DNA of 64,000 nt from NCBI GenBank assembly GCA_013178305.1, contig JABLXB010000007.1, forward strand, positions 124,001 through 188,000. The letters run 5' to 3'. The notes under the pieces are model-generated. The model was not told the DNA's origin. It made no database searches and saw only the letters and a program-made list of their open reading frames with translations. Every line of letters begins with the position of its first letter. Positions within the stretch are counted from its first letter, which is position 1. Of the stretch, positions 5,176 to 56,300 are shown in pieces. Position numbers and translations under genes: made by a program. Source of the stretch: Bacillota bacterium. GTDB taxonomy: Bacteria > Bacillota > Sulfobacillia > JABLXB01.

Positions 5176-5202
5176 TGGCTTGCGCAGTCTGGAGGGATTG
5201 AC

Positions 5203-5964: not shown

Positions 5965-5967
5965 ACG

Positions 5968-6040: not shown

Positions 6041-6058
6041 TTGCCCCGCCCCGGCTCC

Positions 6059-6088: not shown

Positions 6089-6139
6089 CTGGGAACAGCC
6101 CATGCGGCAACGGCCCATGGGGTACAGGGGTGGTGAAAC

Positions 6140-6676: not shown

Positions 6677-6730
6677 AGGAATCCCTTCCTGACCTGTCGA
6701 AAAACACCAGGCAGGCTGGAGGGGTTTTCT

Positions 6731-7246: not shown

Positions 7247-7845
7247 TAAGGTTCCTCAAGGGGGTCATAGAGGAGAAGGGCCCCGACTACGTCGTGCTGG
7301 ACGTCGGCGGCGTCGGGTTCACCTGCTTCGTCGCCCCGTCGACCCTGTCCGCGTTGCCCCCGCAGGGGTCGGAAGCGCGGATCTTCACCCACCTCCACGT
7401 GCGCGAGGACGCTCTCTCATTGTACGGCTTTTCGTCGGTGGAGGAACTCCGCCTGTTCGATATCCTGCTCAGCGTCTCGGGGGTCGGGCCGAAGGTCGGC
7501 CTCACTATAATCGCGAGCATATCCCCACCCGATTTCTACAAGGCGGTGCTGTTCGAGGACGAGGAGGCGCTCATGCTCATCCCCGGCATCGGCCGCAAGA
7601 CCGCCCAGAGACTGATACTCGAACTCAAGGACAGGATCGGCGTCAGGAAGAGAGAAGGTCCGAGGCCGAGGGGCGCCCCGCTCAGGCAAGATCCGGTCGG
7701 CCAGGCGGAGGAGGCGCTGATCGCGCTCGGCTACAGCAGGGCCGAGGCGTCCGAGGCGGTCCGCCTTGCCAGCGAGGAGGTGAAGGGCGACCCCGGCGTC
7801 GAGGAACTGATACACAGGGGTCTGAAGAATCTCGCCAGGGTCTAG
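7243..7845 (+). CDS. ruvA: Holliday junction DNA helicase subunit RuvA
   Basis: RuvA tetramers bind four-way junctions and load RuvB. The N-terminal OB-fold starts MIRFLKGVIEEKGPDYVVLDVGGVG-like. Two helix-hairpin-helix motifs follow, at LSVSGVGPKVGL and LMLIPGIGRKTAQRL. A flexible linker at about residues 140-150 leads to the C-terminal RuvB-contact domain (EEALIALGYSRAEASEAV). At 200 aa it is full length. It starts inside the ruvC stop codon, and 45 bases separate it from ruvB. Confidence 0.96.
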   Translation: MIRFLKGVIEEKGPDYVVLDVGGVGFTCFVAPSTLSALPPQGSEARIFTHLHVREDALSLYGFSSVEELRLFDILLSVSGVGPKVGLTIIASISPPDFYKAVLFEDEEALMLIPGIGRKTAQRLILELKDRIGVRKREGPRPRGAPLRQDPVGQAEEALIALGYSRAEASEAVRLASEEVKGDPGVEELIHRGLKNLARV

Positions 7846-7890
7846 CCTGAGACGTCAAGCGGGGAGAACGCAGGGAGGTAAACCACGCCG

Positions 7891-8919
7891 GTGATGGAGG
7901 AAAGGCTCGTCTCGCCGAGCCCGAAGGAAGAGGACCGCGAGGTCGAATCGAGTCTGAGGCCGAGACGGCTCGCCGACTACGTCGGACAGGGGCGTATCAA
8001 GGAGCGTCTCAAGATATACATAGAAGCGGCGAGGGGGAGGGAGGAACCTCTCGACCACGTGCTCCTCTACGGACCACCGGGTCTCGGCAAGACCACGCTG
8101 GCTCACATCATCTCCAACGAGATGGGATCCGCGATCAGGACCACGTCGGGCCCCGCCATCGAGCGGCCCGGCGACATGGTGGCGATCCTGACGAACCTTG
8201 ACGACCGCGGCGTGCTGTTCATCGACGAGATCCACCGGCTGAACCACACCGCCGAAGAAGCGTTGTATCCGGCCATGGAGGATTTCCTGTACGACTGGGT
8301 GGCGGGTAAGGGGCCGAGCGCCCGCACATACAGGGTCAAGCTGCCCAGGTTCACCCTCATCGGCGCGACGACGAGGGCGGGGCTTCTGGCGTCGCCATTG
8401 AGGGACAGGTTCGGCATCACACTGAGGCTCGAGTTCTACGAACCGGCGGAACTGGAGTGCATACTGGATCGCTCCGCGGGAATCCTTGGGGTGGCAGTTG
8501 ACCGCGAGGGGCTGAGGGAGATAGCCTTGCGCTCGAGGGGAACCCCCCGGGTGGCGAACCGGCTGCTCAGGAGGTTGCGTGATTTCGCCCAGGTGCGGGG
8601 GCGCGGTGTAATAGACGGTGACACCGCCCGCGAGGGGCTGAGGCTCCTCGAAGTAGACGAGGTGGGCCTCGACAGGGTGGACCGCGAGATGCTCCGGTCG
8701 ATCATCACCAGGTACGCGGGCGGGCCCGTCGGGCTGGAAACGGTGGCCGCGTCGATAAGCGAGGAACCGGAGACCATAGAGGACGTGTACGAGCCATACC
8801 TCCTCCAGATCGGGTTCATCCAGCGCACGCCGAGGGGCAGGATGGTGACGGCGGGCGCGTACGACCATCTGGGCCTCAGGCCTCCGCAGGCCGACTCCAG
8901 TCAGCAGAAGTTCTGGTAG
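7891..8919 (+). CDS. ruvB: Holliday junction branch-migration ATPase RuvB
   Basis: RuvB is a hexameric AAA+ motor that drives branch migration. Visible motifs are Walker [10 protein letters not shown] at about residues 57-65, Walker [10 protein letters not shown] near residue 110, sensor 1 IGATTRAG, and the C-terminal winged helix ([13 protein letters not shown]). The 342-aa length is standard. GTG 7891 is followed directly by ATG 7894; AGGGAGGT at 7872-7879 serves either start. It is the last of the ruv genes and lies 12 bases before queH, suggesting one transcript. Confidence 0.96.
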
Positions 8920-9500: not shown

Positions 9501-9722
9501 ATGCCGTTCGAGCAAATCGGTCGTATGCTGGTATTCGTCGGCCTGGTGCTGGCCGCGTTCGGGCTTTTCATCATGCTTGGCGGCAGGCTGTTCAGTCTCG
9601 GGCGACTTCCCGGGGACGTAGTGATAAGGCGCGGCAACTTCACCTTCTACTTCCCGATAGTCACCAGCATAGTGATAAGCGTCGTGCTCTCCCTCATCGG
9701 CTGGGTCTTCTCACGCCGCTAG
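9501..9722 (+). CDS. Small membrane protein, DUF2905 family
   Basis: This 73-aa protein consists of two membrane segments (IGRMLVFVGLVLAAFGLFIML and FYFPIVTSIVISVVLSLIGWVF). They are joined by a conserved loop, RLFSLGRLPGDVVIRRGNFTFYFP, whose LPGD and FYFP elements are typical of DUF2905. The function of the family is unknown. ATG 9501 has AGAAGGGG 9 bases upstream. It lies between queH and sigI; genes of this family often sit beside ruvB or queA in Bacillota. Confidence 0.8.
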   Translation: MPFEQIGRMLVFVGLVLAAFGLFIMLGGRLFSLGRLPGDVVIRRGNFTFYFPIVTSIVISVVLSLIGWVFSRR

Positions 9723-9729
9723 ACCGTTT

Positions 9730-9758
9730 ACCCCAACAATCTTCCCGTTCATTTCGAA
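9730..9758 (+). promoter_or_regulatory. Sigma-I-type promoter for sigI-rsgI
   Basis: ACCCCAA (9730-9736) and CGAA (9755-9758) are 18 bp apart. SigI promoters described in Bacillus and Clostridium thermocellum have a CCCC-containing -35 and a CGAA -10, and sigI genes are usually autoregulated. The predicted leader is very short, ending almost at the ribosome site. Confidence 0.55.
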
Positions 9759-9776
9759 TTTCTTAGAAGGAGCGAG

Positions 9777-10544
9777 GTGGCGCGGTTGGGCGTCGGCCCG
9801 AATCCCCAGCACCTCGAGTTATTGGAAAGGGCTAGAAGAGGAGACTCAAGGTCGCGGGACGCACTGCTCCAGGCGTACGTGCCGTTCGTCCTCAAAGTAG
9901 CATCCCAGTTTTGCGGGAGGTTCCTGAGGCTGGGACACGATGAGGAGGCGCAGGTCGCTCTGGAGGCATTCAACGAGGCCGTGGATTGCTTCGACCCGGC
10001 CGGGGGGGCTCCTTTTCCCGCGTTCGCCCAGACGGTAATGAAGCGGAGGCTCATCGACGATCTCCGCAGGAGGCAGCGGCTGGGGAGAGAGGTGCCGTTA
10101 TCCAGTTTCGACGAGGAGGACGCCGAGGGGAACGTCCGGAACGTCGTCGAGGCCGCGGAGGCCACCGCTGAATACGAACGGGCTCAGGAGAACATCGAGC
10201 GACGTGACGAGATAATCCGTTACAGGAACCTCCTGGGGGAGTATGGGATCTCGCTCTCGGAACTCGTGATGCTGACCCCGAGGCACGACGACGCCAGGCA
10301 GCGCGCTATCCAGGTGGCCAGGGTGGTGGCAGGCGACCCCGCGCTGCGCGCACACCTTGCGACGAGAAGGGAGCTCCCGCTTAGAGACCTCGAGGGGAGG
10401 GTCGGGCTAAGCCGGAAGACGCTCGAGAGACAGAGGAAGTACATAGTCGCGGTTGCCCTCGTATACATGGGCGAGTTCGCCTCGCTGAGGGGGTACCTCG
10501 ACCCGGCGAACGGGGGGCGGGGTGAAGGGGAGATGGAAAAGTGA
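9777..10544 (+). CDS. sigI: RNA polymerase sigma factor SigI
   Basis: A 255-aa sigma-70-type factor. Region 2 spans roughly residues 14-105: DALLQAYVPFVLKVASQF, then EAFNEAVDCFDPAGGAPFPAFA, then RRLIDDLRRR. The C-terminal SigI-specific domain includes SELVMLTPRHDDARQRA and ends with an HTH-like GLSRKTLERQRKYIVAV. SigI factors respond to heat or envelope and polysaccharide cues and are held by the membrane protein RsgI, whose gene overlaps this stop codon. The start is GTG 9777 (AAGGAG only 4 bases upstream) or TTG 9786. The upstream CCCC/CGAA promoter suggests self-activation. Confidence 0.88.
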   Translation: MARLGVGPNPQHLELLERARRGDSRSRDALLQAYVPFVLKVASQFCGRFLRLGHDEEAQVALEAFNEAVDCFDPAGGAPFPAFAQTVMKRRLIDDLRRRQRLGREVPLSSFDEEDAEGNVRNVVEAAEATAEYERAQENIERRDEIIRYRNLLGEYGISLSELVMLTPRHDDARQRAIQVARVVAGDPALRAHLATRRELPLRDLEGRVGLSRKTLERQRKYIVAVALVYMGEFASLRGYLDPANGGRGEGEMEK

Positions 10545-12040
10545 AAAATCGCGGGCTTCTCATGGAGGTTCGCGGAAAAAGGGGAATAGTCCTGACGCCG
10601 GACGGGCGATTCGAGGAGATCACGCTCACGTCGCCGGCCTGTATCGGCGACGAGAGCGTGTTCCCCGCCCGTGAGGGGCGGGAGGCGGGGGGCGTCTTGC
10701 GCGTAGCGACGTCCTGGGCAGGCCGTCGCCGGTTCAGTTCCGTGGCCATCGCCGCCGCACTCATTCTAGGGATCATGGCTTCGATAGTCGTCGAGGCGGT
10801 GAGGGCCGATCGTATCGCGGTCGCCTACGTTGACGTGGACATCAACCCCGCGGTAGAACTCGGGATTAACAGGTTCAACAGGGTCGTTTCGGTAGAGGGT
10901 ATCGATGACGAGGGGCGCGAGATGCTTTCCGGAATCGACCTCACGCGGATGGACCTGGAGACTGCGGTGCAGGAGATAGCGACGGCCGCCGAGGCGCACG
11001 GTTACGTCAGGCCGGGAGACGAACAGACGGTACTCATAACGGTCACTCCGGCCAGGGGCCCCGAGGTAAAGCCCGAGATCGCCCGGCGCGTCGAAAAGGC
11101 CAGCCAGGCGGTGTCCAAACACCTCGAATCGAAGCAGGTAAAGGGAACAGTGGAGGTAATCCAGGCAGCGCCCGAGGTCCGGGAGAAGGCGAGGCAGATA
11201 AACGTGTCGCCCGGGCGTCTCGCCGTGTTGTTGAAGGCCCAGGAGAATGGGATCGACATCGGGCCGGACCTGTTCACGAAGAAACCGTCCGCCGGGGACT
11301 CCAGGAAGGGCCAGCAGGCGCAGCCGCCCGGTGAACGTCAGGATGCGGAGGGCACAACCCCGGAGCAGCAGCCGGGTGGAGGACACAGTCCGGGTGGCGA
11401 GCAGCAGGCGCCGGGCAAGCACCAGCCCGGCCAGTCGCCGGCCTCACCGCAGCCAGGAGGGCGGCAACCCGATCACCAGGTTCCGGCCGAGCAGCCACAA
11501 GTGGGGCATCCGGACGGCGAACGGCCGCCAGAACCACCATCGCAGGGTCCCGGCAAGGGGCACGAGGCGGGCAGCAAGCCACAGCCTGTGAAGCCAGAGC
11601 CGGTGAAGCCCGGCGCGCCCCAGCCAGCGCAGCCCGAACAGGGGGCGAAATCGCAGAGCCGCCTGCTCGAGCTCATAAAAGGGGCCAAGCAGGAAAAGGA
11701 CTGGGGGCGGCTGCTCGAGGAATTCGGGGAGGAAGTGCGCAAGCAGATCAAGGAGGCCGCGGAGAAACGCGACGAGCGCCGTCCGGGCGACAATGACGGG
11801 CGGAAACCCTCGAAACCCGAAGGCAAGGAAGACGGCAAGCAGGACAAGAAGGAACCGGAATCGAAACCCGCTTCGAAGCGTGACATCCGCCCCGATCCGG
11901 GGAGGACCGGTCGCGTGAGAGAGAGCGCGGTCACGCGCGAGGAACTGCTGCGAGGGATCAAGGACTGGAAGGAAGCCCGTGAACCCGAGATCCAGCAACT
12001 GCTCGAAGAACTTATGGAGGAAGAGAAGCCGGGCAATTGA
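10541..12040 (+). CDS. rsgI: RsgI-type membrane anti-sigma factor with long disordered ectodomain
   Basis: The protein has an RsgI N-terminal cytoplasmic domain (residues 1-60: GIVLTPDGRFEEI), one transmembrane helix (about 66-87), and the RsgI ectodomain with VDINPAVELGIN. The Asn102-Pro103 bond is the conserved autoproteolysis site in this family. After about residue 245 comes a proline/glutamine/glycine-rich low-complexity stretch of roughly 120 residues, then a lysine/glutamate-rich helical tail. No carbohydrate-binding or catalytic module is recognisable at the C-terminus, unlike many clostridial RsgI proteins, so its signal is unknown. It starts four bases inside sigI and should sequester SigI. 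Confidence 0.85.
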   Translation: MKNRGLLMEVRGKRGIVLTPDGRFEEITLTSPACIGDESVFPAREGREAGGVLRVATSWAGRRRFSSVAIAAALILGIMASIVVEAVRADRIAVAYVDVDINPAVELGINRFNRVVSVEGIDDEGREMLSGIDLTRMDLETAVQEIATAAEAHGYVRPGDEQTVLITVTPARGPEVKPEIARRVEKASQAVSKHLESKQVKGTVEVIQAAPEVREKARQINVSPGRLAVLLKAQENGIDIGPDLFTKKPSAGDSRKGQQAQPPGERQDAEGTTPEQQPGGGHSPGGEQQAPGKHQPGQSPASPQPGGRQPDHQVPAEQPQVGHPDGERPPEPPSQGPGKGHEAGSKPQPVKPEPVKPGAPQPAQPEQGAKSQSRLLELIKGAKQEKDWGRLLEEFGEEVRKQIKEAAEKRDERRPGDNDGRKPSKPEGKEDGKQDKKEPESKPASKRDIRPDPGRTGRVRESAVTREELLRGIKDWKEAREPEIQQLLEELMEEEKPGN

Positions 12041-13403
12041 TAGCCTGCTGTGGTGGGCGTTTGTCCAACTGAGATGCGCGGCGTTGGCCGCGCTTCTTCT
12101 TGTTGGTAGCGTGCCTGGGGTGGGGGGCCACCGGCCCGCGGCTGCTGCGCCACTACCGCCACCGGGGGGTGTAATCAGGGTTCTGGTAGCATCGGGTCAG
12201 GCGGTGACGGCCACCGTCCCATCCGGTGGGCGGATTGTGGACGGGGGCGGGGCCCCCCTTATGAGCCTTTCTCCGGGTACGACCGCTGTCTTCGAGCCGC
12301 AGGGGACAGGCGTTTCCGCCAGGATCGGCGGCAGGACCGTATTCTCCCCCGTGCTCGAATTGGTCCCCGATGCCCCGAACAATGGGCCCGCGTGCGTCAC
12401 GCTGGGTACGGCGGGTTTCAGAGGCCTGATCCGCGTGTGTCCTGCGCCGGCGGCCGGGGGCTCGCCCGGAACGGGTGGCGCAGCCGCGCTGCTCGCGGTC
12501 AACGTGGTTCCTCTCGAAGAATACCTGTACGGGGTCGTAGGTTCCGAAATGCCCGCCGATTGGCCGGAGGAGGCGCTCAAGGCGCAGGCCGTGGCCTGTC
12601 GCTCGTTCGCCCTTTCCTGCGCCCGGGCGGCGATCGCAAAGGGTGCCCCGTACGATCTCACCGCCACCACCGACGGACAAGTATACGGGGGATTATCGCG
12701 TGAAAACGCCGCGGCCGCCGCCGCGGTGCAGTCCACAAGAGGCATCGTGCTGACGAGCGCTGGCGAGCCCGCCCGGGCTGTGTTTCACTCGTCGTCATCG
12801 GGCCACACGGAGAACAGTGAATTCGTGTGGTCGGCGGCGTCCCCGTACCTCAAAGGCGTCCCGGATCCCGACGACAGTTCCCCCCACCGCTCCTGGGAGT
12901 TCAGGGCCACGGCCGGGGAGATCGAGAGGCTTCTCTCCGGCGCGGGGATCGACGTGGGCGCGTTCCGGGGGTTGAGGTGCCTGGAGCAAGGGGTATCGGG
13001 CCGGTGGAGCAAGGTGTCCGTTATGGGCTCGAAGGGGAGCGCCGTGGTCCGTGGAATAGAGTTCCGCAGGGCGCTCGGCCTCAAGAGTACCTGGTTCAGC
13101 GTCTCGGAGCAGGATCCCGGGATCGAGCCTGCCGTGGTCCGTTACGATTCCGGGCAGGCCCTGTACGCCCTTTCGGCCTCGGGTCAGGTCTCGATGGTCT
13201 CCCCGGCTTATCGCGCACCGGAGGTTTCCGTGCTGTGCTATCGCACCATACCGCGACTATACGTGTTCAACGGAAGGGGCTGGGGGCACGGGGTCGGGAT
13301 GTCGCAGTGGGGCGCGCGGACGCTCGCCGAACGAGGGTATAAGTACCCCGACATCCTAGAACATTACTACTTGAACACCAGGCTGGAGGAGTACGCCCGG
13401 TGA
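11979..13403 (+). CDS. SpoIID/LytB domain protein (exported)
   Basis: A hydrophobic leader (LAALLLVGSVPGVGG) precedes a SpoIID domain: VVPLEEYLYGVVGSEMPADWPEEALKAQAV..SFA, then FHSSSSGHTENSEFVW, and a C-terminal GRGWGHGVGMSQWGA motif. SpoIID itself is a lytic transglycosylase that trims denuded glycan during engulfment; paralogues act in other wall processes. The upstream-most start, GTG 11979, overlaps rsgI by 62 bases and has GGAAGGAAG before it. TTG 12084 is a shorter alternative with no clear site, so the N-terminus is uncertain. It overlaps queA by four bases. Sporulation SpoIID or a SigI-regulated wall enzyme are both possible. Confidence 0.82.
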   Translation: MNPRSSNCSKNLWRKRSRAIDSLLWWAFVQLRCAALAALLLVGSVPGVGGHRPAAAAPLPPPGGVIRVLVASGQAVTATVPSGGRIVDGGGAPLMSLSPGTTAVFEPQGTGVSARIGGRTVFSPVLELVPDAPNNGPACVTLGTAGFRGLIRVCPAPAAGGSPGTGGAAALLAVNVVPLEEYLYGVVGSEMPADWPEEALKAQAVACRSFALSCARAAIAKGAPYDLTATTDGQVYGGLSRENAAAAAAVQSTRGIVLTSAGEPARAVFHSSSSGHTENSEFVWSAASPYLKGVPDPDDSSPHRSWEFRATAGEIERLLSGAGIDVGAFRGLRCLEQGVSGRWSKVSVMGSKGSAVVRGIEFRRALGLKSTWFSVSEQDPGIEPAVVRYDSGQALYALSASGQVSMVSPAYRAPEVSVLCYRTIPRLYVFNGRGWGHGVGMSQWGARTLAERGYKYPDILEHYYLNTRLEEYAR

Positions 13404-14425
13404 GGGTTTCCGATTTCGATTATTCCCTGCCCCGCGAGCTGATAGCCCAGGAACCCGTCGAGCCGAGGGACGCGTCCCGCCTCCTCGTGTTACACAGGGA
13501 TTCTGGCGTAATGGAGCACCGCAACTTCCGCGATATCCTCCGCTACCTGCGCAAAGGGGATTGCCTCGTGCTCAATGACACGAAGGTGATCCGCGCCCGC
13601 CTGATGGGGCGAAAGCCTACCGGTGGGTTGGTCGAGGTGTTCCTGCTGCGCGACACCGGGGACGACGTGTGGGAGGCGCGGGTCCGGCCCGGCAAGAGGC
13701 TCGGCCTGGGGACGAGGGTCGTTTTCGGGGATGGCGACCTGCAGGCAGAGGTGGTTGACCGTACGGAGTTCGGCGGGCGCCTGGTCAAACTGTTCACTCC
13801 CGGCGGTAGGGTACGCGAAGCGATCGAGCGTGTCGGGACGGTCCCGCTCCCGCCCTACATTCACAGGCCCGTCCATGACGCGGGACGCTACCAGACCGTG
13901 TACGCTCGGGAGGACGGGTCGGTCGCGGCGCCGACCGCAGGTCTGCATTTCACCCCGTCGCTCCTCGAGGATGTCGAGGGGATGGGGGTGCGAGTCGCCT
14001 ACGTGACGTTACACGTCGGGCTCGGCACGTTCAGGCCGGTGCAGGTGGATGAAGTCGAGGAACACCGGATGCACGCCGAACACTACAGCGTCCCCGCTCC
14101 GGCGGCGGCGCTGATAAACGGTACTGTAGCGCAGGGCGGCAGGGTTATCGCGGTCGGGACTACCGTGGTTCGCACGCTGGAGAGCGTCGCCCCGGGCGAG
14201 GGACGCGTGAACGCCCGGGACGGCTGGACGAGCGCGTTCATTTATCCCGGGTACGAGTTCAAGGTGGTATCGGCGCTGGTCACGAACTTCCACCTGCCGA
14301 AGTCCACGTTGCTCATGCTCGTCAGCGCGTTCGCGGGCACTCAAAGCGTGCTCCACGCCTACGCCGAGGCGGTCCGCCGGCGGTACAGGTTTTACTCATT
14401 TGGCGACGCGATGCTGGTAATCTGA
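13400..14425 (+). CDS. queA: S-adenosylmethionine:tRNA ribosyltransferase-isomerase QueA
   Basis: QueA transfers and rearranges the ribosyl part of SAM onto preQ1 in tRNA to give epoxyqueuosine. The N-terminus FDYSLPRELIAQEPVEPRDASRLL-like region is diagnostic (split: FDYSLPRELIAQ, then RDASRLLVL). Further conserved blocks are VLNDTKVIRARLMGRK near residue 57, APTAGLHFT near residue 177, and TNFHLPKSTLLMLVSAFAG near residue 295. The protein is 341 aa, full length. Its GTG start lies inside the previous stop codon; tgt follows 32 bases later. Confidence 0.96.
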   Translation: MRVSDFDYSLPRELIAQEPVEPRDASRLLVLHRDSGVMEHRNFRDILRYLRKGDCLVLNDTKVIRARLMGRKPTGGLVEVFLLRDTGDDVWEARVRPGKRLGLGTRVVFGDGDLQAEVVDRTEFGGRLVKLFTPGGRVREAIERVGTVPLPPYIHRPVHDAGRYQTVYAREDGSVAAPTAGLHFTPSLLEDVEGMGVRVAYVTLHVGLGTFRPVQVDEVEEHRMHAEHYSVPAPAAALINGTVAQGGRVIAVGTTVVRTLESVAPGEGRVNARDGWTSAFIYPGYEFKVVSALVTNFHLPKSTLLMLVSAFAGTQSVLHAYAEAVRRRYRFYSFGDAMLVI

Positions 14426-14457
14426 GCGCCCCCGCCAGGCGCCGGAGGAGTGGGTGA

Positions 14458-15612
14458 ATGGCTGCCGGTTTCTCATTCACCGTGGAGAGAACCGATACTC
14501 GCTCGAGGGCAAGACTGGGGTGGCTCGACACCCCGCACGGGGTCGTGCGCACCCCCGTGTTCATGCCAGTGGGTACGCAGGCCACGGTCAAATGCGTTAC
14601 TCCATCTCAGGTGGAGGAGGCGGGTGCGGAGATCGTGCTGTCGAACACGTACCACCTCTACCTGAGGCCCGGACACGAGGTCGTCCAGGAACTCGGCGGC
14701 ATCCACCGGTTCATGTCCTGGCCCAGGCCGGCCCTGACGGACAGCGGCGGCTTCCAGGTTCTCAGCCTGTCGGCGCTGCGCAAGGTGTCCGACGACGGTG
14801 TGGTGTTCAGGTCCCACCTCGACGGCTCCGAGCATTTCTTCTCGCCGGAAAAGGCCACGCAGATACAGAACGCGCTCGGCTCGGACATTGCCATGGCGTT
14901 CGACGAGTGCCCACCTTACCCCGCAACGCACGGTGAACTCGAGGCCTCAGTGGAACGCACGGCGAGGTGGGCGGAGCGGTGCAAGTCGGCGCACGCCAAC
15001 CCCGCCCAGGCGTTGTTCGGTATTGTGCAGGGCGGAACCGACCGCGGACTCCGGGGGAGGAGCGCGACCCAGATCGTCGCGACCGGTTTCGACGGGTATG
15101 CCATCGGGGGACTCAGCGTGGGCGAGCCCAAGGAGGCCACCTACGAGATGGTGGGTGAGGTGGAGCCGCTGCTGCCGGTGGGTCGCCCGAGGTACCTGAT
15201 GGGTGTAGGCTCACCCGATGATCTGGTGCAGGCGGTCTTACTGGGCATCGACATGATGGACTCGGTCCTCCCGACGCGCCTCGCCAGGCACGCCGCGCTG
15301 CTTAGTAGTGAAGGGCGGCTGCAGATCAAGAACGCCGCTTACGCCCGCGACGCCCGCCCGATCGATGAGGGGTGCGATTGCTACGCCTGCAGGCATTTCT
15401 CGAGGGCGTACGTCCGCCACCTGTTCAAGGCGGGGGAGATCCTCGGCCTGACCCTCGCCACGATCCACAACCTTAGATACCTTTTCAGGCTGATGGAAAG
15501 GATAAGGAAAGCCGTGGCCAACGGCGGGTTGGACGACCTCCGGAGGGAGGTCGTGGACCTGTTCGGCGACGCTCGAACGGCGACGGCTGCGGGGGACGGC
15601 GAGCTGCAGTAA
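14458..15612 (+). CDS. tgt: Queuine tRNA-ribosyltransferase (tRNA-guanine transglycosylase)
   Basis: The enzyme swaps guanine 34 for preQ1 in GUN-anticodon tRNAs. The substrate pocket motif LTDSGGFQVLSLS is near residue 95. The nucleophile region MDSVLPTRLARHAALLS is near residue 267, and the zinc site CDCYACRHFSRAYVRHLF near residue 305 has three Cys and one His. At 384 aa it is a normal bacterial Tgt. ATG 14458 has GGAGGAG upstream. The order queA-tgt-yajC matches Bacillus subtilis. Confidence 0.97.
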   Translation: MAAGFSFTVERTDTRSRARLGWLDTPHGVVRTPVFMPVGTQATVKCVTPSQVEEAGAEIVLSNTYHLYLRPGHEVVQELGGIHRFMSWPRPALTDSGGFQVLSLSALRKVSDDGVVFRSHLDGSEHFFSPEKATQIQNALGSDIAMAFDECPPYPATHGELEASVERTARWAERCKSAHANPAQALFGIVQGGTDRGLRGRSATQIVATGFDGYAIGGLSVGEPKEATYEMVGEVEPLLPVGRPRYLMGVGSPDDLVQAVLLGIDMMDSVLPTRLARHAALLSSEGRLQIKNAAYARDARPIDEGCDCYACRHFSRAYVRHLFKAGEILGLTLATIHNLRYLFRLMERIRKAVANGGLDDLRREVVDLFGDARTATAAGDGELQ

Positions 15613-48269: not shown

Positions 48270-49004
48270 TTGCTGAACACGGTGGCCAGGGCACGCCTGG
48301 CATGGCGGCTTGCCCTGGTCAAGGCGTTGCGGGTCCTGGGACTCGCCTTGGGGCCGTCGATCCAGTACGTAGGCTCGAGCGAGGCGCTACCGCCGCCCCT
48401 GAGCCTCGACGAGGAGAGCTTCCTGATCGGGAGGTTGAGGGGCGGGGATTCGGATGTCAAGGCGGTCCTTATCGAGAGGAACCTGCGGCTCGTGGTGTAT
48501 ATAGCAAGGAAGTTCGAGAACACGGGCATTAATATCGAGGACCTGGTATCGATAGGAACGATCGGCCTGATAAAAGCGGTGAGCACGTTCGACCCCGATA
48601 AGAGGATAAAACTCGCGACGTACGCCTCCAAGTGCATAGAGAACGAGATCCTGATGTACCTCAGGAGGACCAGCAAGACGAGGTACGAGATATCGTTCGA
48701 CGAGCCGCTCAATGTCGATTGGGATGGGAATGAACTCCTCCTTTCGGACGTTATGGGGACCGACGACGACGTCACCTACCGCGACCTGGAGGAGGAGGTC
48801 AACAGAGCGCTCCTCAGGAAAGCGCTGACGAAGTTGTCCGGCCGCGAGAGGGCGATAGTGGAGCTCAGGTTCGGTCTCAGGGATGGCACCGAGCGCACCC
48901 AGAAAGAGGTCGCGGACCTCCTCGGGATATCGCAGTCGTACATATCCAGGCTTGAGAAACGGATAATCAAGAGGCTCAACAGGGAGATGAAAAGGCTGGA
49001 ATAG
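48270..49004 (+). CDS. sigE: Sporulation sigma factor SigE (pro-sigma-E)
   Basis: This is the mother-cell early sigma factor, made as an inactive precursor. An N-terminal hydrophobic-basic pro-sequence (about residues 1-30, [20 protein letters not shown]) is followed by region 2, [34 protein letters not shown] (in two runs), with [21 protein letters not shown]. Region 4 holds the helix-turn-helix [23 protein letters not shown]. It is 244 aa with a TTG start behind GAGGTGA. sigG, its normal neighbour in spore formers, lies 6.5 kb away, behind a catabolic cassette. Confidence 0.96.
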
Positions 49005-49155
49005 CCGTCTGACGATTGAGGCGGGATGCCGCGCGCCGGGAGGACGTTTGACACCTTCCGGCGCAACATTTTTCCAGAGCACTGTGAGATTCACAAACCT
49101 TGAAGGGATCTGCCGGTTGGCGTCGAACGATCGGCATGAGATGAAGGAATAAATT

Positions 49156-49195
49156 CATACAATGACCATATATGATGCAATACCTGCATCATATA
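49156..49195 (+). promoter_or_regulatory. Operator-like palindrome and -10-like element before the RpiR-type regulator
   Basis: TATATGATGCA (49169-49179) and TGCATCATATA (49185-49195) are a perfect 11-bp inverted repeat with a 5-base spacer. CATACAAT at 49156-49163 just upstream can serve as a -10 (TACAAT) and also equals the sigma-E -10 consensus. The palindrome would cover the start of transcription, as expected for a repressor site. Confidence 0.65.
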
Positions 49196-49221
49196 GACAG
49201 GAGACGTCAGGAGGCGCCGGG

Positions 49222-50103
49222 TTGGATCCTCAAAGGGTCGACGTTCTGAAGCGAATCAGCGAGGCTGCCGGGGATCTCAGCGAGGGGCAGCGACTTGTGG
49301 CCGAGTACCTGATTACGAACAGCGAGCGTGCGGTGTTTTTGACCGCTGCGCGCCTGGGGCAGGAGGTTGGGGTCAGCGAGTCGACCGTCGTGCGATGCGC
49401 CATGGCTCTCGGGTATTCGGGTTATCCTGAAATGCATAGGGACCTCCAGGAAATGGTCAAGAGCCGGCTGACAACCGTCGATAGACTCAAGGCGGCGAGC
49501 GATCAGGCCGGTTCAGGGGAGCATGTCATCGAACGGGTAATGCGGGCCGACATCGAATACATCGAGACTACACTGAGGGAAGTATCCAGGGAGGATTTCA
49601 AGCGTGCCGTGGAGGCTATCAGCGAGGCCAGGCGGATACTGGTGATAGGCCTCAGGAGCGCGTCGGCGATGGCCTTCTTCCTGGGGTACTCGCTCAACTG
49701 GATCCTGAGGAACGTCACCATGATATCCCATGGAGCAGGTGACATGTTCGAGCAGGTGATGTGTGCGGCTGAGGGAGACGTGGCCATCGGCATCACGTTC
49801 CCCCGTTACACCAGGCAGGCGGTCGAACTGGTCGGGCTCGCAAAGAAGCGCGGGGCGACCACCATCGGGATTACCGACAACGTGATGTCGCCGCTCGCGG
49901 GCGTGTCGGAGATCCTGCTGACCGCCAAGAGCGGTATGCCTTCCTACATCGACTCGTTTGTGGGCCCGCTGAGCCTCATAAACGCGCTGATCACGGCTGT
50001 GGGCGCGGAGGATGAGACCAGGACGGCGGCGGCGCTTGGTGAGCTCGAGCCGGTGTGGGATGAATACCAGATCTACTTCACCGACAGGACGAGGCGGGCT
50101 TAA
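49222..50103 (+). CDS. MurR/RpiR-family transcriptional regulator
   Basis: The protein has an RpiR helix-turn-helix (about residues 18-75: LSEGQRLVAEYLITN, FLTAARLGQEVGVSESTVVR, GYSGYPEMH) and a SIS domain (RILVIGLRSASAMAFFLGYSL, ITFPRYTRQAVELVGLAKKRGA in two runs, then GITDNVMSPLAGVSEILL), which normally binds a phosphosugar or related ligand. TTG 49222 lies 7 bases after AGGAGG and gives 293 aa. The ATG at 49162 lies upstream of the large palindrome and has no ribosome site. It is the first gene of a cassette with an aminotransferase, a BKACE enzyme and a TRAP transporter, which it probably controls. Confidence 0.88.
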   Translation: MDPQRVDVLKRISEAAGDLSEGQRLVAEYLITNSERAVFLTAARLGQEVGVSESTVVRCAMALGYSGYPEMHRDLQEMVKSRLTTVDRLKAASDQAGSGEHVIERVMRADIEYIETTLREVSREDFKRAVEAISEARRILVIGLRSASAMAFFLGYSLNWILRNVTMISHGAGDMFEQVMCAAEGDVAIGITFPRYTRQAVELVGLAKKRGATTIGITDNVMSPLAGVSEILLTAKSGMPSYIDSFVGPLSLINALITAVGAEDETRTAAALGELEPVWDEYQIYFTDRTRRA

Positions 50104-50121
50104 GAGCGGGGAGGTGTCCAA

Positions 50122-51495
50122 TTGTACGAGGACGAGTTGAACGACGGCAACGTTTTCTACCGAAATGTGAAGAAAGGATACCCGGTGCTCGTCAAAGGCG
50201 AAGGGGTCTACCTGTGGGACCGCGACGGCAACAGGTACCTTGACGGTTGCGCCGGGGCGCTTGTGGCTAACATCGGCCACGGGGTCCGCGAAATCGCCAG
50301 GGTGATGGCGACGCAGGCCGAGCACCTGTCGTTCGCGCACGGAGAGAGATTCACCGCCCCGCCGGTCCTGGGGCTCGCCCGGCGCATCGCCGAACTCGCT
50401 CCGGGGTCTCTGAAGAAGATCTACTTCGTTTCGGGGGGATCGGAAGCCACTGAGTCGGCATTGAAGCTCGCGAGGCAGTATTTTATCGAGAGGGACGGGA
50501 AAACGCAGAAGTACAAGGCGATCGCAAGGTGGCACAGCTACCACGGCAACACCCTGGGCGCCCTGTCGATGAGCGGTCACGTACCCAGGCGCCGGAAATA
50601 CCAGCCACTGCTGTGCAACTTCCCTCACATCCCCGCCGCCTACTGCTACAGGTGCGCGTATGACCTCACGTACCCGAAGTGTGACCTGCGCTGCGCTGCG
50701 GCGCTCGAAGAAGCCATCCTGGCCGAGGGTCCCGAGAACGTGGCTGCGTTTATTGCCGAGCCCGTCGTCGGGGCCGCCGCCGGCGCGCTCACGCCCCCAC
50801 CCGGCTATTTCGAGGCGGTCCGGCGGATCTGCGACAGGTACGACGTGTTACTGATCGCCGACGAGGTCATGTGCGGGGTAGGTCGCACGGGAAAGTACTT
50901 CGCCATAGACCACTGGGGGGTTGTGCCGGACATCATGGCCCTGGCAAAGGGGCTCGGGTCGGGATATACCCCCCTCGCTGCGATCGTGGTAAAGGACGAG
51001 ATCTGGGAGACATTCAGGAAGGGCTCCGGCAAGTTCGTTCACGGCCACACCTACGGGGGTAACCCGGTGTCGTGCGCCGCTGGATGCGCCGTGTTCGACT
51101 ACATGAAGGAGCGCGGGCTGGTTGAGAACGCGGCCAGCGTGGGGATCTACCTGAAGCAGCGCATGGCGGTTCTCGCTGATAACCCGATCGTGGGGGACGT
51201 AAGGGGCATCGGGCTCATGATAGGTGTAGAGCTCGTAAAGGACAAGGCCACGAAACAGCCGTTCGAGGTCTCCGCGGGCGCGGCCGAGCTGGCGACAAGG
51301 TCGTGCATGAAACACGGCGTCATCGTCTACCCGGGCCAGGGGTGCGCCGACGGGGTCAATGGCGACCAGTTCCTCGTGGGGCCGCCCCTTACGATCACCA
51401 GGCGGGAGACGGACGAACTGGTAGAAGGGCTGAAAGCCGGACTGGCTGACGCGGCCCGAGAGCTGCTGGGCCGTCAGGGAGGAGATCGCCAGTGA
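50122..51495 (+). CDS. Class III PLP-dependent aminotransferase
   Basis: A 457-aa fold-type I enzyme. DRDGNRYLDGCAGALVANIGHG is near residue 33. VSGGSEATESALKLARQY near residue 107 and ARWHSYHGNTLGALSMSG bind PLP phosphate and ring. IADEVMCGVGRTG is near residue 244, and the Schiff-base lysine is residue 276 in ALAKGLGSGYTPLAA. Class III enzymes move amino groups from omega-, beta- or diamino acids to pyruvate or 2-oxoglutarate. A cysteine cluster (CYRC, then PKC and LRC, near residues 175-193) occurs in a subset of this class. The next gene starts inside its stop, so substrate channelling to BKACE is plausible. Confidence 0.9.
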   Translation: MYEDELNDGNVFYRNVKKGYPVLVKGEGVYLWDRDGNRYLDGCAGALVANIGHGVREIARVMATQAEHLSFAHGERFTAPPVLGLARRIAELAPGSLKKIYFVSGGSEATESALKLARQYFIERDGKTQKYKAIARWHSYHGNTLGALSMSGHVPRRRKYQPLLCNFPHIPAAYCYRCAYDLTYPKCDLRCAAALEEAILAEGPENVAAFIAEPVVGAAAGALTPPPGYFEAVRRICDRYDVLLIADEVMCGVGRTGKYFAIDHWGVVPDIMALAKGLGSGYTPLAAIVVKDEIWETFRKGSGKFVHGHTYGGNPVSCAAGCAVFDYMKERGLVENAASVGIYLKQRMAVLADNPIVGDVRGIGLMIGVELVKDKATKQPFEVSAGAAELATRSCMKHGVIVYPGQGCADGVNGDQFLVGPPLTITRRETDELVEGLKAGLADAARELLGRQGGDRQ

Positions 51496-52307
51496 ACAAT
51501 CTCATAGTGACCGTTGCCCCAACAGGCAATGTGCCGACCAAGGAGAAGACCCCTCACGTACCGGTCACTCCCGAGGAGATCGCGCGTTCTGTCTACGAAT
51601 CCTACAAAGCCGGCGCTTCCGTGGCGCACATTCACGCGAGGGATGAAAGGGGGCTCCCCACGCACAGGCTCGACGTATTCCGCGAGATCGTCGAGCGAGT
51701 GAGGGAGAAGTGCGACATCATCATCCAGCTCTCGACGGGGGCGCGCGCCGGAAAGACCGCGGAGGAACGCGGCGAGTGCATCTCACTCGCGCCGGAGATG
51801 GCAAGCCTGACGACCGGCTCTTCGAACTTCCCCACGACGATCAACTCGAACCCGGCGGAACTGATTGAATACCTGTGCAGGCAGATGAAACAGTACGGTG
51901 TGGTGCCGGAGATCGAGGTTTTTGACAGCGCCATGATATCCAACGCGCTGGATCTCGAGAAAAACGGGCTGATTTCGCCTCCTCTCACGTTCAATCTCGT
52001 CATGGGCGTGCGCGGGTCCATCCCCGCCAGCCCGAAAAACCTCTTCTTCCTGGTCGATAGTCTTCCGCACGGGGCGCGGTGGACGTGTACGGCGATCGGT
52101 CCTCTCCATCTACAACTGTCTACAATAGCAATCGCGCTGGGCGGAAATGTCCGCGCCGGCATTGAGGACAACGTCTTCTATGAAAAGGGGGTACTGGCTA
52201 CCAACCCACAACTCGTCGAACGCGTGGTGAGAGTGGCCGAGGCTACCGGCCGTGGTGTGGCCACGGTGGCCGAGGCGCGGGAGATCCTGGGACTGAAAGA
52301 TCGCTAA
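51492..52307 (+). CDS. BKACE-family beta-keto acid cleavage enzyme (Kce-like)
   Basis: BKACE (formerly DUF849) enzymes are zinc-dependent TIM barrels. They condense a beta-keto acid with acetyl-CoA and split it into acetoacetate and a new acyl-CoA; Kce of lysine fermentation is the founding member. Visible here are VTVAPTGNVPTKEKTPHVPVTP-like start text, the metal ligand motif VAHIHARDERG near residue 40, EIEVFDSAMISNAL, and VRAGIEDNVFYEKGVLA near residue 217 with the conserved Glu-Asp-Asn. It is 271 aa. The substrate is unassigned; coupling to an aminotransferase suggests a keto acid made from a beta- or gamma-amino acid. Confidence 0.88.
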   Translation: MNNLIVTVAPTGNVPTKEKTPHVPVTPEEIARSVYESYKAGASVAHIHARDERGLPTHRLDVFREIVERVREKCDIIIQLSTGARAGKTAEERGECISLAPEMASLTTGSSNFPTTINSNPAELIEYLCRQMKQYGVVPEIEVFDSAMISNALDLEKNGLISPPLTFNLVMGVRGSIPASPKNLFFLVDSLPHGARWTCTAIGPLHLQLSTIAIALGGNVRAGIEDNVFYEKGVLATNPQLVERVVRVAEATGRGVATVAEAREILGLKDR

Positions 52308-52321
52308 GGAGGGGGAGCGAA

Positions 52322-53362
52322 ATGAACAGACGTGCTGCGGTGTGGATTTGCGCCTTTCTCGTGGCAGTATTCCTCATCGCCGGGTGCGGTGCGCCTGCGG
52401 CCGAAAAGAAGCCGGAACCCAAGCCGGGTGAGACGAAACCGGCCGAGAGCAAGACGCCCGGGAAGGAGGCGAAGCTCCTGTTCGCTACCGGCGGAACCTC
52501 GGGCAGCTACTATCCTCTCGGGGGCGCCATGGCTCAGGTCTGGAACAAGAAGATTGAGGGGCTAAGCGTAACGGTGCAGGCTACTGGCGCATCGGTCGAA
52601 AACGTGCGCCTGCTCGGTAACAAGAATGCCGAACTTGCCCTGTGCATGAGCGACATCGCGTACTATGGCCAGAACTCATTGGAGATCTTTGCCGATAAGC
52701 AGGAAAAATACACCAACTACAGCGCCGTCGGCGCCATCTATCCCGAAACCGTTCAGATATTTGTGCGCAAGGATAGTCCAGTCAAGAGCATCCCCGGCCT
52801 CAAGGGAAAGCGAGTATCAGTCGGGCCGCCGGGCAGCGGGACCGAGGTCAGCGCCCGCCAGATCCTGGGCATCTATGGATTGGACTACAAGCAGCGCAAG
52901 GACGTTGAACCCAGGTACATTTCGTTCGCGGAAACGGCGGACCAGTTCAAGGACAAGCTTATTGACGCCGGCTACGCGGTGCTCGGCGTTCCGAACGCCG
53001 CGATCCAGGATATAACCGCCGTGGTCCCGATCAGGCTTCTCGATATCGACGATGACATGCTGGCAAAGATACACGCGAAGTACCCGTATTATTCCAGGCT
53101 GGTGATCCCGGGCGGGTCGTACAAGGGCCAGGATGACCCCACGAAGACGATCACGTTGAAGGCTATCCTCCTCGCCAGGAACGATCTCGACGAGTCGCTC
53201 GTTTACAACCTTACCCGGACACTGTACGAAAACGCCGCAGAGGTCGCCGGGGCTCACGCGCTCGGGAAGCACATCAAGCTCGAGACCGCGATGGAGGGTA
53301 TCGCAATCCCGTTCCATCCCGGGGCCATGAAGTACTTCAAGGAGAAAGGGATAGCCAGGTAA
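52322..53362 (+). CDS. TAXI-family TRAP transporter solute-binding lipoprotein
   Basis: The signal peptide ends in the lipobox LIAGC (Cys at about residue 22), followed by a proline/lysine-rich spacer. The TAXI domain begins LLFATGGTSGSYYPLGGAMAQVWN and contains VQATGASVENVRLL and MSDIAYYGQNSL. It also has KRVSVGPPGSGTEVSARQIL near residue 160 and AMEGIAIPFHPGAMKYFKEKG at the end. This extracellular receptor hands a small organic anion to the TRAP permease encoded downstream. ATG 52322 has AAGGAGGGGG upstream; the protein is 346 aa. Confidence 0.93.
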   Translation: MNRRAAVWICAFLVAVFLIAGCGAPAAEKKPEPKPGETKPAESKTPGKEAKLLFATGGTSGSYYPLGGAMAQVWNKKIEGLSVTVQATGASVENVRLLGNKNAELALCMSDIAYYGQNSLEIFADKQEKYTNYSAVGAIYPETVQIFVRKDSPVKSIPGLKGKRVSVGPPGSGTEVSARQILGIYGLDYKQRKDVEPRYISFAETADQFKDKLIDAGYAVLGVPNAAIQDITAVVPIRLLDIDDDMLAKIHAKYPYYSRLVIPGGSYKGQDDPTKTITLKAILLARNDLDESLVYNLTRTLYENAAEVAGAHALGKHIKLETAMEGIAIPFHPGAMKYFKEKGIAR

Positions 53363-53451
53363 GGCGTGGAGCCGGTCGCAGGCGGCCGCGAGTCGGCCGC
53401 CGGACGGCGCGCTCGCCCGCAGCCACGTTCACGTGTGGAGGAGGATTCGAC

Positions 53452-55383
53452 GTGGAGGACACACAATCGCTGGTGAAGCAGGTGCTGGAGAAATTCGACC
53501 CCGAGGCCCGCCACCGGAATCTGGACGGGCTCTGGGCCGTGACCGTCAGGGTGATAGCGCTGGCCTTCTCGGGTTTTCAGCTGTACACGGCGCTGTTCGG
53601 GACCCTCGACGACAAGCTTCAACGGCCCGCCCACCTGACCTTTGCCCTCACGTTGATCTTCCTCCTCTACCCGGCGCGAAGGAACTGGGACAGGCGGCGC
53701 GTGCACTGGGTGGATGTGGTGTTCGCACTTGTGGCATCCGGCACAGGGGCGTACTGCCTTCTCAGTTACGAGGGGCTGGTTTCGCGCGCCGGGGCTTATA
53801 CCTCCACCGACCTGATCGTGGGGATCATTGGGGTCTTGCTGGTGCTCGAGGCCGCCAGAAGGATCGTAGGTCCAGCAATGGTGGTTGTGGCTTCGGTGTT
53901 TCTCGGGTACAACTGGTTCGGGCCGTACCTTCCGGCCGCGCTGACCCATCGTGGGTATTCGGTCGAGCGGATTTTCACGCACATGTACTACACAACCGAA
54001 GGCATACTCGGCATCCCGCTTGGCGTGTGCGCGACGTTCATCTTTCTTTTCATTCTGTTCGGGGCTTTCCTGGAGAAAACGGGGATCGGGAAGTTCTTCA
54101 TCGATTTGTCCAACGCAGCCGCGGGCGGCGCTGCAGGGGGCCCGGCGAAGGTAGCGGTGTGTTCGAGTGCGCTTTTCGGGACGGTCTCAGGGAGTTCCGT
54201 CGCCAACGTGGTCGGTACGGGCACCTTCTCGATTCCGCTCATGAAGAAGTTGGGCTACCGGCCCGAGTTCGCCGGCGCGGTTGAGGCGGCCGCATCCACC
54301 GGCGGGCAGCTTATGCCACCGATCATGGGCGCAGCAGCCTTCCTGATGGCCGAGTTCATAGGGATGAAGTATGCCTCCGTCGTCAAGGCGGCGATACTAC
54401 CGGCGGTGCTGTATTTCACGGGAATCTGGATAATGGTCCACCTTGAGGCGAAGAAGCTGGGCCTCAAAGGGTTGCCGAGGGATCAGATCCCGCACCTCGG
54501 CTCACTGCTCAGAGAGAAATGGTATCTCCTCTTGCCCCTCGCCGGCATTATCTACTTCCTGGTCAGTGGCTACACCCCAATGAGGGCGGCTCTGGCCGGA
54601 CTGGCGTTGACCCTGATAACCGGCGTCTTGAAACGGGAGGACAGGCTGACTGTGAGGGACATTCTGGCGGCCCTCGAGCAGGGGGCGAGGGGAGTGCTGA
54701 GCGTCGCCGCGGCGTGCGCTTGCGCGGGCATAATCGTAGGGACCGTGACCCTGACCGGCCTCGGGCTGAAGATGGGGGATGCCCTCATCTCTCTCGCCGG
54801 GGGAAGGCTTCTCCTTACACTTTTCTTCACGATGCTCACATCGCTCATCCTGGGCATGGGGGTGCCGACCACCGCGAACTACGTGATAACCTCGTCGATT
54901 GCCGCGCCTGCCATCGTGCGCCTGGGAGTCCCGAAGATAGCCGCGCACCTTTTCACGTTCTACTTTGGCATTATCGCCGACATTACGCCACCGGTCGCCC
55001 TCGCTGCATTCGCCGGTTCGGCCATAGCCAAAGCAAACCCGTTCAGAACAGGGGTGACCGCTACCAAGCTTGCGATCGCCGCGTGGCTCATCCCTTACAT
55101 GTTCGTGTTCAACCCCGTCATGGTACTCGTGGGGGTTACCCCCGGCCTTTTGTTGCAGATGGCAATCACTTCTCTTACCGGCATGGTGGCTGTCGCGGCT
55201 TCGGTAGAAGGCTACTTCCTCACCCATCTCCTACCATTAGAAAGGCTCGCGTTGTTCTGTGGGGGCCTCATGTTGATAGACCCCGGTCTGATGACGGATG
55301 TTGTCGGACTCGGCGCAGTCGCTCTGGTGTACCTGAGCCAAAGGCGCCGGAGCAGCAGGGCAATCGCCGTGCAGTCTGTATAA
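53452..55383 (+). CDS. TRAP transporter fused 4TM/12TM permease
   Basis: A 643-aa membrane protein joining the small DctQ-like and large DctM-like subunits, the usual form in TAXI-type TRAP systems. The N-terminal part (about residues 1-140) has four helices. The large part contains GIPLGVCATFIFLFILFGAFL, ALFGTVSGSSVANVVGTGTFSIPLMKKLGY (two runs), EAAASTGGQLMPPIMGAAAFLMAEF and, near the end, GMGVPTTANYVITSS and ADITPPVALAAFAGSAIAKA. It imports its substrate with sodium or protons. GTG 53452 follows TGGAGGAGG. It is the last gene of the cassette between sigE and sigG. Confidence 0.92.
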   Translation: MEDTQSLVKQVLEKFDPEARHRNLDGLWAVTVRVIALAFSGFQLYTALFGTLDDKLQRPAHLTFALTLIFLLYPARRNWDRRRVHWVDVVFALVASGTGAYCLLSYEGLVSRAGAYTSTDLIVGIIGVLLVLEAARRIVGPAMVVVASVFLGYNWFGPYLPAALTHRGYSVERIFTHMYYTTEGILGIPLGVCATFIFLFILFGAFLEKTGIGKFFIDLSNAAAGGAAGGPAKVAVCSSALFGTVSGSSVANVVGTGTFSIPLMKKLGYRPEFAGAVEAAASTGGQLMPPIMGAAAFLMAEFIGMKYASVVKAAILPAVLYFTGIWIMVHLEAKKLGLKGLPRDQIPHLGSLLREKWYLLLPLAGIIYFLVSGYTPMRAALAGLALTLITGVLKREDRLTVRDILAALEQGARGVLSVAAACACAGIIVGTVTLTGLGLKMGDALISLAGGRLLLTLFFTMLTSLILGMGVPTTANYVITSSIAAPAIVRLGVPKIAAHLFTFYFGIIADITPPVALAAFAGSAIAKANPFRTGVTATKLAIAAWLIPYMFVFNPVMVLVGVTPGLLLQMAITSLTGMVAVAASVEGYFLTHLLPLERLALFCGGLMLIDPGLMTDVVGLGAVALVYLSQRRRSSRAIAVQSV

Positions 55384-55466
55384 TCGCAGGGCACACTTCC
55401 CCTCGAGATCCTCACTGAATCTAGTTCACTTGTTTCCAGATTTTTACTCTATTCCCAGCCCGCGCT

Positions 55467-55495
55467 GTATATTTACCCGTCCGTGCGGAGATAAT
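55467..55495 (+). promoter_or_regulatory. Sigma-F promoter for sigG
   Basis: GTATA (55467-55471), 15 bp, then GGAGATAAT (55487-55495) match the Bacillus subtilis sigma-F pattern GYATA-N15-GGnnAnAnT at every specified position. sigG is a known sigma-F target. Transcription would begin near 55502, before the ribosome site at 55512. Confidence 0.75.
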
Positions 55496-55526
55496 CATGG
55501 CAGGATGCCGCATAGGAGGGGTATTT

Positions 55527-56300
55527 TTGCTGGCAAACAAGGTAGAAATATGCGGCGTAAACACCTCGAAGCTCCCCGTACTGACAAACGCCAAGATGCG
55601 GGAGTTGTTTGCCAAGGTCAAGGCCGGCGACAGGAAGTCCCGCGAGGAGCTCATCAGTGGAAACCTGAGGCTCGTGTTGAGCGTAATTCAGAGGTTCTCC
55701 AACCGCGGGGAATACGTGGACGACCTGTTCCAGGTCGGCTGCGTCGGCCTGATGAAGGCCATTGACAACTTCGACCTGAACCAGAACGTGAAGTTCTCGA
55801 CGTACGCCGTTCCGATGATAATAGGTGAGATCCGCAGGTACCTGAGGGACAACAACCCCATCCGCGTGAGCCGCTCGCTGAGGGACATAGCGTACAAGGC
55901 GCTTCAGGTGAGGGACACGCTCGTCAACAGGTTCTCGCGGGAGCCGTCCATCAACGAGATAGCTGAGGAACTCAAGCTGCCGTGCGAAGAGGTCGTATAC
56001 GCCCTCGACGCGATACAGGAGCCGATCTCGCTGTTCGAGCCCATATATCACGATGGCGGCGACCCTATCTACGTGATGGACCAGATTGGAGACGAGAAGA
56101 ACCAGGATTCGATCTGGCTGGAGGGGATAGCCATCAGGGAGGCGATGAGGAAGCTGACCGACAGGGAGAGACTCATACTTACGTTGCGGTTCTATGAGGG
56201 GAAAACGCAGATGGAGGTCGCCGAGGAAATCGGCATCTCGCAGGCGCAGGTTTCCAGGCTCGAGAAAGCGGCGCTGCAGCGTATGAAGAAGCATATATGA
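55527..56300 (+). CDS. sigG: Sporulation sigma factor SigG
   Basis: The late forespore sigma factor. It opens LANKVEICGVNTSKLPVL, the strongly conserved SigG N-terminus. Region 2 follows (ISGNLRLVLSVIQRFSNRGE, DDLFQVGCVGLMKAIDNFDL, VKFSTYAVPMIIGEIRRYLR), then region 3, then region 4 with TQMEVAEEIGISQAQVSRLEK. At 257 aa it is complete. TTG 55527 lies 7 bases after AGGAGGGG; the in-frame ATG at 55497 falls within a few bases of the predicted sigma-F promoter and is rejected. spoIIR overlaps or abuts its end. Confidence 0.96.
   Translation: MLANKVEICGVNTSKLPVLTNAKMRELFAKVKAGDRKSREELISGNLRLVLSVIQRFSNRGEYVDDLFQVGCVGLMKAIDNFDLNQNVKFSTYAVPMIIGEIRRYLRDNNPIRVSRSLRDIAYKALQVRDTLVNRFSREPSINEIAEELKLPCEEVVYALDAIQEPISLFEPIYHDGGDPIYVMDQIGDEKNQDSIWLEGIAIREAMRKLTDRERLILTLRFYEGKTQMEVAEEIGISQAQVSRLEKAALQRMKKHI

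Follow-up and report, generated by a model that had tools for sequence, protein, structure and literature searches.

A portable five-gene cassette between sigE and sigG in a Sulfobacillia genome, a likely catabolic operon for a beta-amino acid or similar compound

We analyzed a 64,000-nt window of a Bacillota genome (class Sulfobacillia, assembly GCA_013178305.1, here G000; contig JABLXB010000007.1, positions 124,001–188,000), in which a cassette of five genes lies between the sporulation sigma factor genes sigE and sigG. The plus-strand order is FtsZ, SpoIIGA, SigE, an RpiR-type regulator, a class III aminotransferase (hereafter AT3), an enzyme of the beta-keto acid cleavage family (BKACE), a TAXI receptor, a fused TRAP permease, SigG, and SpoIIR. 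Open reading frames (ORFs) and profile matches bore out the initial annotation, which had placed the five genes there on one strand and in this order. We consider it likely that the cassette is an operon, complete in itself and horizontally mobile, for the breakdown of a beta-amino acid (3-amino acid) or a compound like it. The TAXI receptor and TRAP permease would import the beta-amino acid, AT3 would transfer its 3-amino group to an alpha-keto acid, leaving a beta-keto acid, and the BKACE would let this product react with acetyl-CoA, yielding acetoacetate plus an acyl-CoA shortened by two carbons. A CoA-transferase would then move CoA onto acetoacetate, and thiolysis by an acetyl-CoA C-acetyltransferase would yield acetyl-CoA; these last two enzymes would be supplied here from a separate cluster (C1:1007908–1010421) and in relatives from inside the operon. 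The RpiR regulator would control the operon, probably via an inverted repeat at 49169–49195.

Both enzymes are intact members of their families. AT3 (50122..51495, +) has a full-length match to PF00202 (334.4 bits vs. a cut-off of 30.5), and the BKACE (51492..52307, +) matches PF05853 at 323.9 bits (cut-off 24.8) over profile positions 2–274 of 274. The BKACE keeps the zinc ligands His46, His48, and Glu230 (Kce numbering), as well as Glu143 and Arg226, for which catalytic roles have been described (PMC11961710). From its sequence, we propose that it carries out acetyl-CoA-dependent cleavage of a beta-keto acid. At position 14, it has Val (the 'APTGNVPTK' subtype) where Kce, the cleavage enzyme of lysine fermentation, has a Glu that contacts the 5-amino group of the substrate; loss of Glu14 accompanied a tested change of substrate (PMC10470551). 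Lacking Glu14, the window BKACE is not Kce, and because the residue is replaced by Val, its substrate probably has no 5-amino group. In our alignment, Val14 is common to AT3-linked enzymes, except for L184 and the archaeal L049, and Kal-linked enzymes have Glu. Position 145 is Phe in the window BKACE, in Kal-linked Kce enzymes, and in nearly all relatives. Tyr145 has been stated to be present in all BKACEs (PMC12871164); this rule fails in our sample, since Kal-linked Kce enzymes also carry Phe, and Tyr145 is not family-defining. AT3 is best matched by PRK06917 and PRK07483, and its 25 top models include none for HemL; its gene partners are what suggest a specificity for beta-amino acids.

The AT3 and BKACE genes overlap by four bases (GTGA, 51492–51495, the BKACE start preceding the AT3 end), as first reported, and their association is conserved. 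We examined BKACE neighborhoods in 398 sampled genomes of the phylum, leaving out the window BKACE itself. AT3 was the immediate same-strand neighbor, at gaps of 18–217 bp, in seven of the 12 BKACE matches with at least 53% identity, and adjoined none of the 36 more distant matches (48%–52% identity; Fisher P of about 1e-5, a value that ignores relatedness, with matches spread over several families). One of the seven AT3-adjacent BKACEs, at locus L184, is a Glu14 enzyme. Many families keep the two genes adjacent, either overlapping or a short distance apart, and the pair also occurs with a divergent AT3 in an Accumulibacter metagenome-assembled genome. Six neighborhoods of plasmid-borne BKACE relatives contained no aminotransferase.

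Either member of the pair can be exchanged. AT3 relatives without a BKACE (mostly 50%–62% identical) usually carry another partner that handles beta-keto acids, either a CoA-transferase III with a thiolase (L148, L149, L150, L153, and L154) or, in the window genome, a CoA-transferase I with an SCP-type thiolase (L158), combinations that make and cleave a beta-ketoacyl-CoA. Conversely, a BKACE of the same subtype is found with a short-chain dehydrogenase/reductase (SDR) replacing AT3 at L034/L127, L039, L041, and L196, once (L034/L127) beside TAXI and TRAP genes. On the AT3 tree, BKACE-linked rows need five changes, at least two of them forced by well-supported branches, with partners intermixed; AT3-linked rows also need five changes on the BKACE tree. 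The replacement of AT3 by an SDR, and of the BKACE by a CoA-transferase and thiolase, fits a beta-keto acid that is made by AT3 and cleaved by the BKACE. Some genomes carry the downstream enzymes alongside the pair: G179 (locus L189) has AT3, BKACE, thiolase, and CoA-transferase A/B (AtoD/A-type), and G233 and G264 have similar sets. In profile searches, the thiolase hit acetyl-CoA C-acetyltransferase models and the CoA-transferases hit AtoD/ScoB-type ones; the cluster at C1:1007908–1010421 of the window genome encodes such a set. We dropped strict exclusivity between the BKACE and the thiolase/CoA-transferase, given that G179, G233, and G264 combine a BKACE with a CoA-transferase I. The scheme of import, transamination, and cleavage outlined in the initial annotation thereby gains comparative support from conserved adjacency, enzyme swaps, and the added thiolase and CoA-transferase; its order, AT3 before BKACE, is favored but not proven.

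Several of these loci have further features. L127 (in genome G011, 9503–14993) reads TAXI, TRAP, SDR, BKACE, and a sigma54 activator; importer and cleaver are as in the cassette, and a dehydrogenase stands in for the aminotransferase. Elsewhere in the window genome, at L158 (G000:C1:585000–596000, 4647–8672; C1:589778 onward), a paralogous AT3 (54%–55%) precedes CoA-transferase A/B and a thiolase of the SCP type, and a divergent aldehyde:ferredoxin oxidoreductase is also present; we propose that this locus is a second, BKACE-free version of the pathway within the same genome. An Amidohydrolase_3 gene stands directly behind AT3 in L150 and L151, followed in L150 by the CoA-transferase III and thiolase, and the AT3 substrate at these loci may be N-acylated on arrival. 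At L036 (13359–17259), a second, distant BKACE lies beside a class II aldolase, a DUF1537-type kinase, and a GntR regulator.

The five-gene set is a portable unit that turns up again in unrelated bacteria, not unique to the window genome, and its recurrence shows that it is not a chance assembly. All five genes occur together in G000 (counted among the holders), G011, G264, and G188. G011, of the same class but another family, has the same genes in the same order at 64%–78% identity (contig DUMF01000012), flanked by gyrA-rtcB-PAP2 and a deaminase-serS region. G264 and G188 have TAXI, TRAP, AT3, and BKACE with RpiR facing them, and G233 has four of the five genes (BKACE, AT3, TAXI, and TRAP). 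Between G011 and the window, TAXI and TRAP are 78% identical, compared with 79% for SigG, 75% for SigE, 32% for SpoIIGA, and 38% for SpoIIR, and the cassette is absent from G001 and G002. Identity of the transport proteins at the SigE/SigG level, together with this absence, suggests that the cassette has been exchanged horizontally. The genes thus do occur in other contexts, an outcome that the initial annotation had raised, and no assigned substrate was found for them there. In two genomes (L035, 10871–13964; L183, 10029–13023), the genes after RpiR-AT3-BKACE form a shared trio that encodes a BadF-type ATPase and two DUF2229/HGD-D proteins and resembles a 2-hydroxyacyl-CoA dehydratase system.

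The transport genes encode a TAXI-family TRAP solute-binding lipoprotein (52322..53362, +; TIGR02122, 328 vs. a cut-off of 84) and a fused DctQ+DctM permease (53452..55383, +; TIGR02123, 770 bits vs. 321). Like the glutamate receptor VcGluP, the window receptor belongs to the TAXI family and retains Tyr45, Ser75, and Glu125; unlike VcGluP (PMC11574862), it has Met for Gln93, the residue that binds the amino group of the ligand, and Ala for Tyr200, and on these criteria does not qualify as a glutamate receptor. The ligand is probably not glutamate, and we disfavored glutamate import on account of these two replacements. The SDR-linked TAXI protein has His at position 93 and Asn at 125, in a comparison of amino- and hydroxy-ligand receptors that covers very few sequences.

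The regulator, of the RpiR/MurR family, matches both the HTH_6 and SIS domains. Its longest ORF begins at ATG 49162 (49162..50103, +), and a Shine-Dalgarno motif (AGGAGG, 49209–49214) precedes TTG 49222, most likely the true start (293 aa). Position 49169, initially given as the start of the cassette, is not a start codon; a perfect 11-bp inverted repeat begins there, TATATGATGCA-ATACC-TGCATCATATA (49169..49195, +), a candidate operator of the RpiR protein. Allowing up to three mismatches, the repeat had no match in 100 shuffles of the window, and its 23-bp core occurs once in the 3.37-Mb genome, a uniqueness that fits a local regulator. Upstream of the G011 copy there is only a half-site resemblance, and the repeat is not conserved there beyond that. 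Scans for sigma-70 promoters and terminators gave chance-level results only.

Every part of the cassette is of a known type; what would be new is an aminotransferase as the keto-acid-making step of a BKACE-based cleavage. A literature search found no published pathway for the five-gene combination, in line with the initial annotation, and no paper on a natural AT3-BKACE pair, although this search was thin on subscription journals. The logic of a dehydrogenase with a BKACE is known from the phloroglucinol cluster of Clostridium scatologenes, which shares with the cassette a BKACE lacking Glu14 and, adjoining it, an enzyme that forms a beta-keto acid, along with a transporter and a regulator, with thiolase and CoA-transferase as part of the likeness; it differs in having a hydroxy-acid dehydrogenase for the aminotransferase, Trp14 for Val14, and another transporter (PMC10470551). 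An SDR with a BKACE is genetically supported for deoxyribonate in Pseudomonas simiae, where the SDR, as maker of the beta-keto acid, likewise adjoins the BKACE and transporters and acetoacetate is a product, but the substrate is a hydroxy acid, there is no aminotransferase, and the transporters are of the MFS type (PMC6365646). Lysine fermentation (Kdd-Kce-Kal/Kat) resembles our proposal in removing a beta-amino group and in BKACE-family cleavage to acetoacetate, and its Kat is a class III aminotransferase within a Kce route, the class to which AT3 belongs; unlike the cassette, it uses Kce with Glu14, the dehydrogenase Kdd, and a HemL-like Kat that acts on CoA esters after Kce (PMC3149608). 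Finally, an engineered pair of a transaminase and a BKACE works: in the CORE cycle, beta-alanine:pyruvate transaminase and BKACE15 take a beta-amino acid to acetoacetate and an acyl-CoA, as we propose here, but the module is engineered and proceeds through malonate semialdehyde and formyl-CoA (PMC11961710).

Several observations weigh against this reading. A lysine cluster of G421 (L184, 7081–15667) encodes lysine 5,6-aminomutase, 3,5-diaminohexanoate dehydrogenase, and a Glu14 Kce. An AT3 of 46% identity comes after this Kce and occupies the usual place of kal, which was not found at that locus; by analogy with Kat, this AT3 may act after Kce on 3-aminobutyryl-CoA, making it a possible non-HemL counterpart of Kat. 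A second reading of the loci with CoA-transferase and thiolase puts activation before transamination, which would then take place on the CoA ester. The SDRs beside BKACEs may instead use acetoacetate, as 3-hydroxybutyrate dehydrogenases. The TAXI residues are only suggestive, and we infer the substrate of the pathway to the level of its class, the beta-amino acids.

The arrangement at L184 led us to retain as a rival a reverse order, in which a beta-keto (delta-amino) acid, either imported or of internal origin, is cleaved by the BKACE before AT3 turns the resulting beta-aminoacyl-CoA into a beta-ketoacyl-CoA. Such an order has a precedent in Kat (3-aminobutyryl-CoA aminotransferase), a class III enzyme whose step follows that of Kce (PMC3149608), and at L184 itself AT3 follows Kce in the presence of the dehydrogenase and aminomutase, with no kal found nearby. 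We nevertheless regard it as unlikely for the window cassette. The BKACE there has Val rather than Glu at position 14, and its acyl-CoA product need not bear an amino group; AT3, being of the PRK06917/PRK07483 type, differs from the HemL-like Kat; the cassette would contain no maker of a beta-keto acid; and an SDR takes the place of AT3 beside TAXI-TRAP-BKACE. Rather doubtful, too, is the view that the two enzymes have no common intermediate, with AT3 an ordinary omega/amine transaminase, the BKACE acting on another beta-keto acid, and the genes merely co-regulated. AT3 enzymes of this subfamily do occur without a BKACE, and BKACEs without AT3 at L037 and L197, but many families keep the two genes overlapping or close together, and a CoA-transferase and/or thiolase accompanies most AT3s that lack a BKACE.

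The position of the cassette is incidental and without visible functional meaning. SigE (48270..49004, +; equivalog TIGR02835) and SigG (55497..56300, +; equivalog TIGR02850; probable start TTG 55527) flank it, with SpoIIGA and FtsZ upstream of SigE and SpoIIR downstream of SigG. The 6.2 kb first given for the separation holds for the gene span only; the full interval, from the SigE stop to the SigG ORF start, is 6,492 bp. The comparison across relatives proposed in the initial annotation found sigE and sigG adjacent (72–652 bp) in 30 of the genomes examined; in G001, of the same family, they are 131 bp apart and the site is empty. Homology between the window and G001 ends at the sigE stop codon and restarts at 55441, leaving a retained sigG upstream region (55441..55496, +) that includes GTATA-N15-GGAGATAATC, which we take to resemble a sigmaF/sigmaG promoter. 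The interval measures 2.2–5.7 kb in G010, G033, G039, and G042 and holds genes unrelated to the cassette where annotated, indicating that it tolerates insertions, of which the cassette is one case. Among these inserts (L083 in G010, L073 in G033, L074 in G042, and L072 in G039) are a Cys/Met pyridoxal phosphate enzyme, a Pyr_redox protein, an SLH/Big_1 protein, and small unassigned ORFs. In G027 (L070, 2503–4883), sigG and spoIIR have the opposite orientation to sigE; in G011, the two sigma factor genes are on separate contigs. An 8-bp direct repeat (TTTCCAGA, 49071–49078 and 55433–55440) lies in the two boundary regions; we did not take it as evidence of a transposon boundary, with an estimated ∼0.6 such repeats expected by chance.

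As the cassette lies on the same strand within the spoIIG-sigG region, its placement might be taken as functional, that of a metabolic operon tied to sporulation and under sigE/sigG control. We find this highly improbable: The cassette is elsewhere in every other holder examined, the site is empty in G001 of the same family, sigG retains its upstream region, the cassette has its own regulator and operator-like repeat, and other inserts occupy the same place in four genomes. On the grounds of the empty site, the foreign inserts, and the other locations of the cassette, we rejected a sporulation role of the site.

Least probable of all is a variant lysine fermentation with the window BKACE as a second Kce, for although the Kce model NF052387 is its best NCBIfam model (334.1 bits) and the genome has lysine 2,3-aminomutase-type genes, the score is below the equivalog cut-off of 382, Glu14 is missing, none of kal, kdd, and kam is among its neighbors in the window, and another BKACE of the genome (C1:877191–878006), which has Glu14, already passes the cut-off (411.9); we rejected a role in lysine fermentation on this basis.

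Older work on Pseudomonas reportedly described an N6-acetyl-beta-lysine transaminase and the cleavage of 3-keto-6-acetamidohexanoate, steps known biochemically and left without genes. It is a long shot, in our estimate, that AT3 and the Val14 BKACE represent a widespread and so far undescribed anaerobic route for beta-amino acids that fills such gene-less steps, for example, for N6-acetyl-beta-lysine, a methanogen osmolyte, as imported food. We set this compound aside as the substrate here: ablB was not found in the window genome, so that it would need to be imported, and the literature search found no text on the cleavage step. The pairing does offer a testable function for proteins annotated as 'aspartate aminotransferase family' (PRK06917-type) and '3-keto-5-aminohexanoate cleavage protein', annotations that recur together across many anaerobic Bacillota. 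Enzymes of the Val14 subtype are probably misnamed when automatic annotation calls them Kce, a point of importance for the genome-based prediction of lysine fermentation. More generally, our results suggest a scheme in which an interchangeable maker of a beta-keto acid (aminotransferase or dehydrogenase) is followed by an interchangeable cleaver (a BKACE, or a CoA-transferase with a thiolase).

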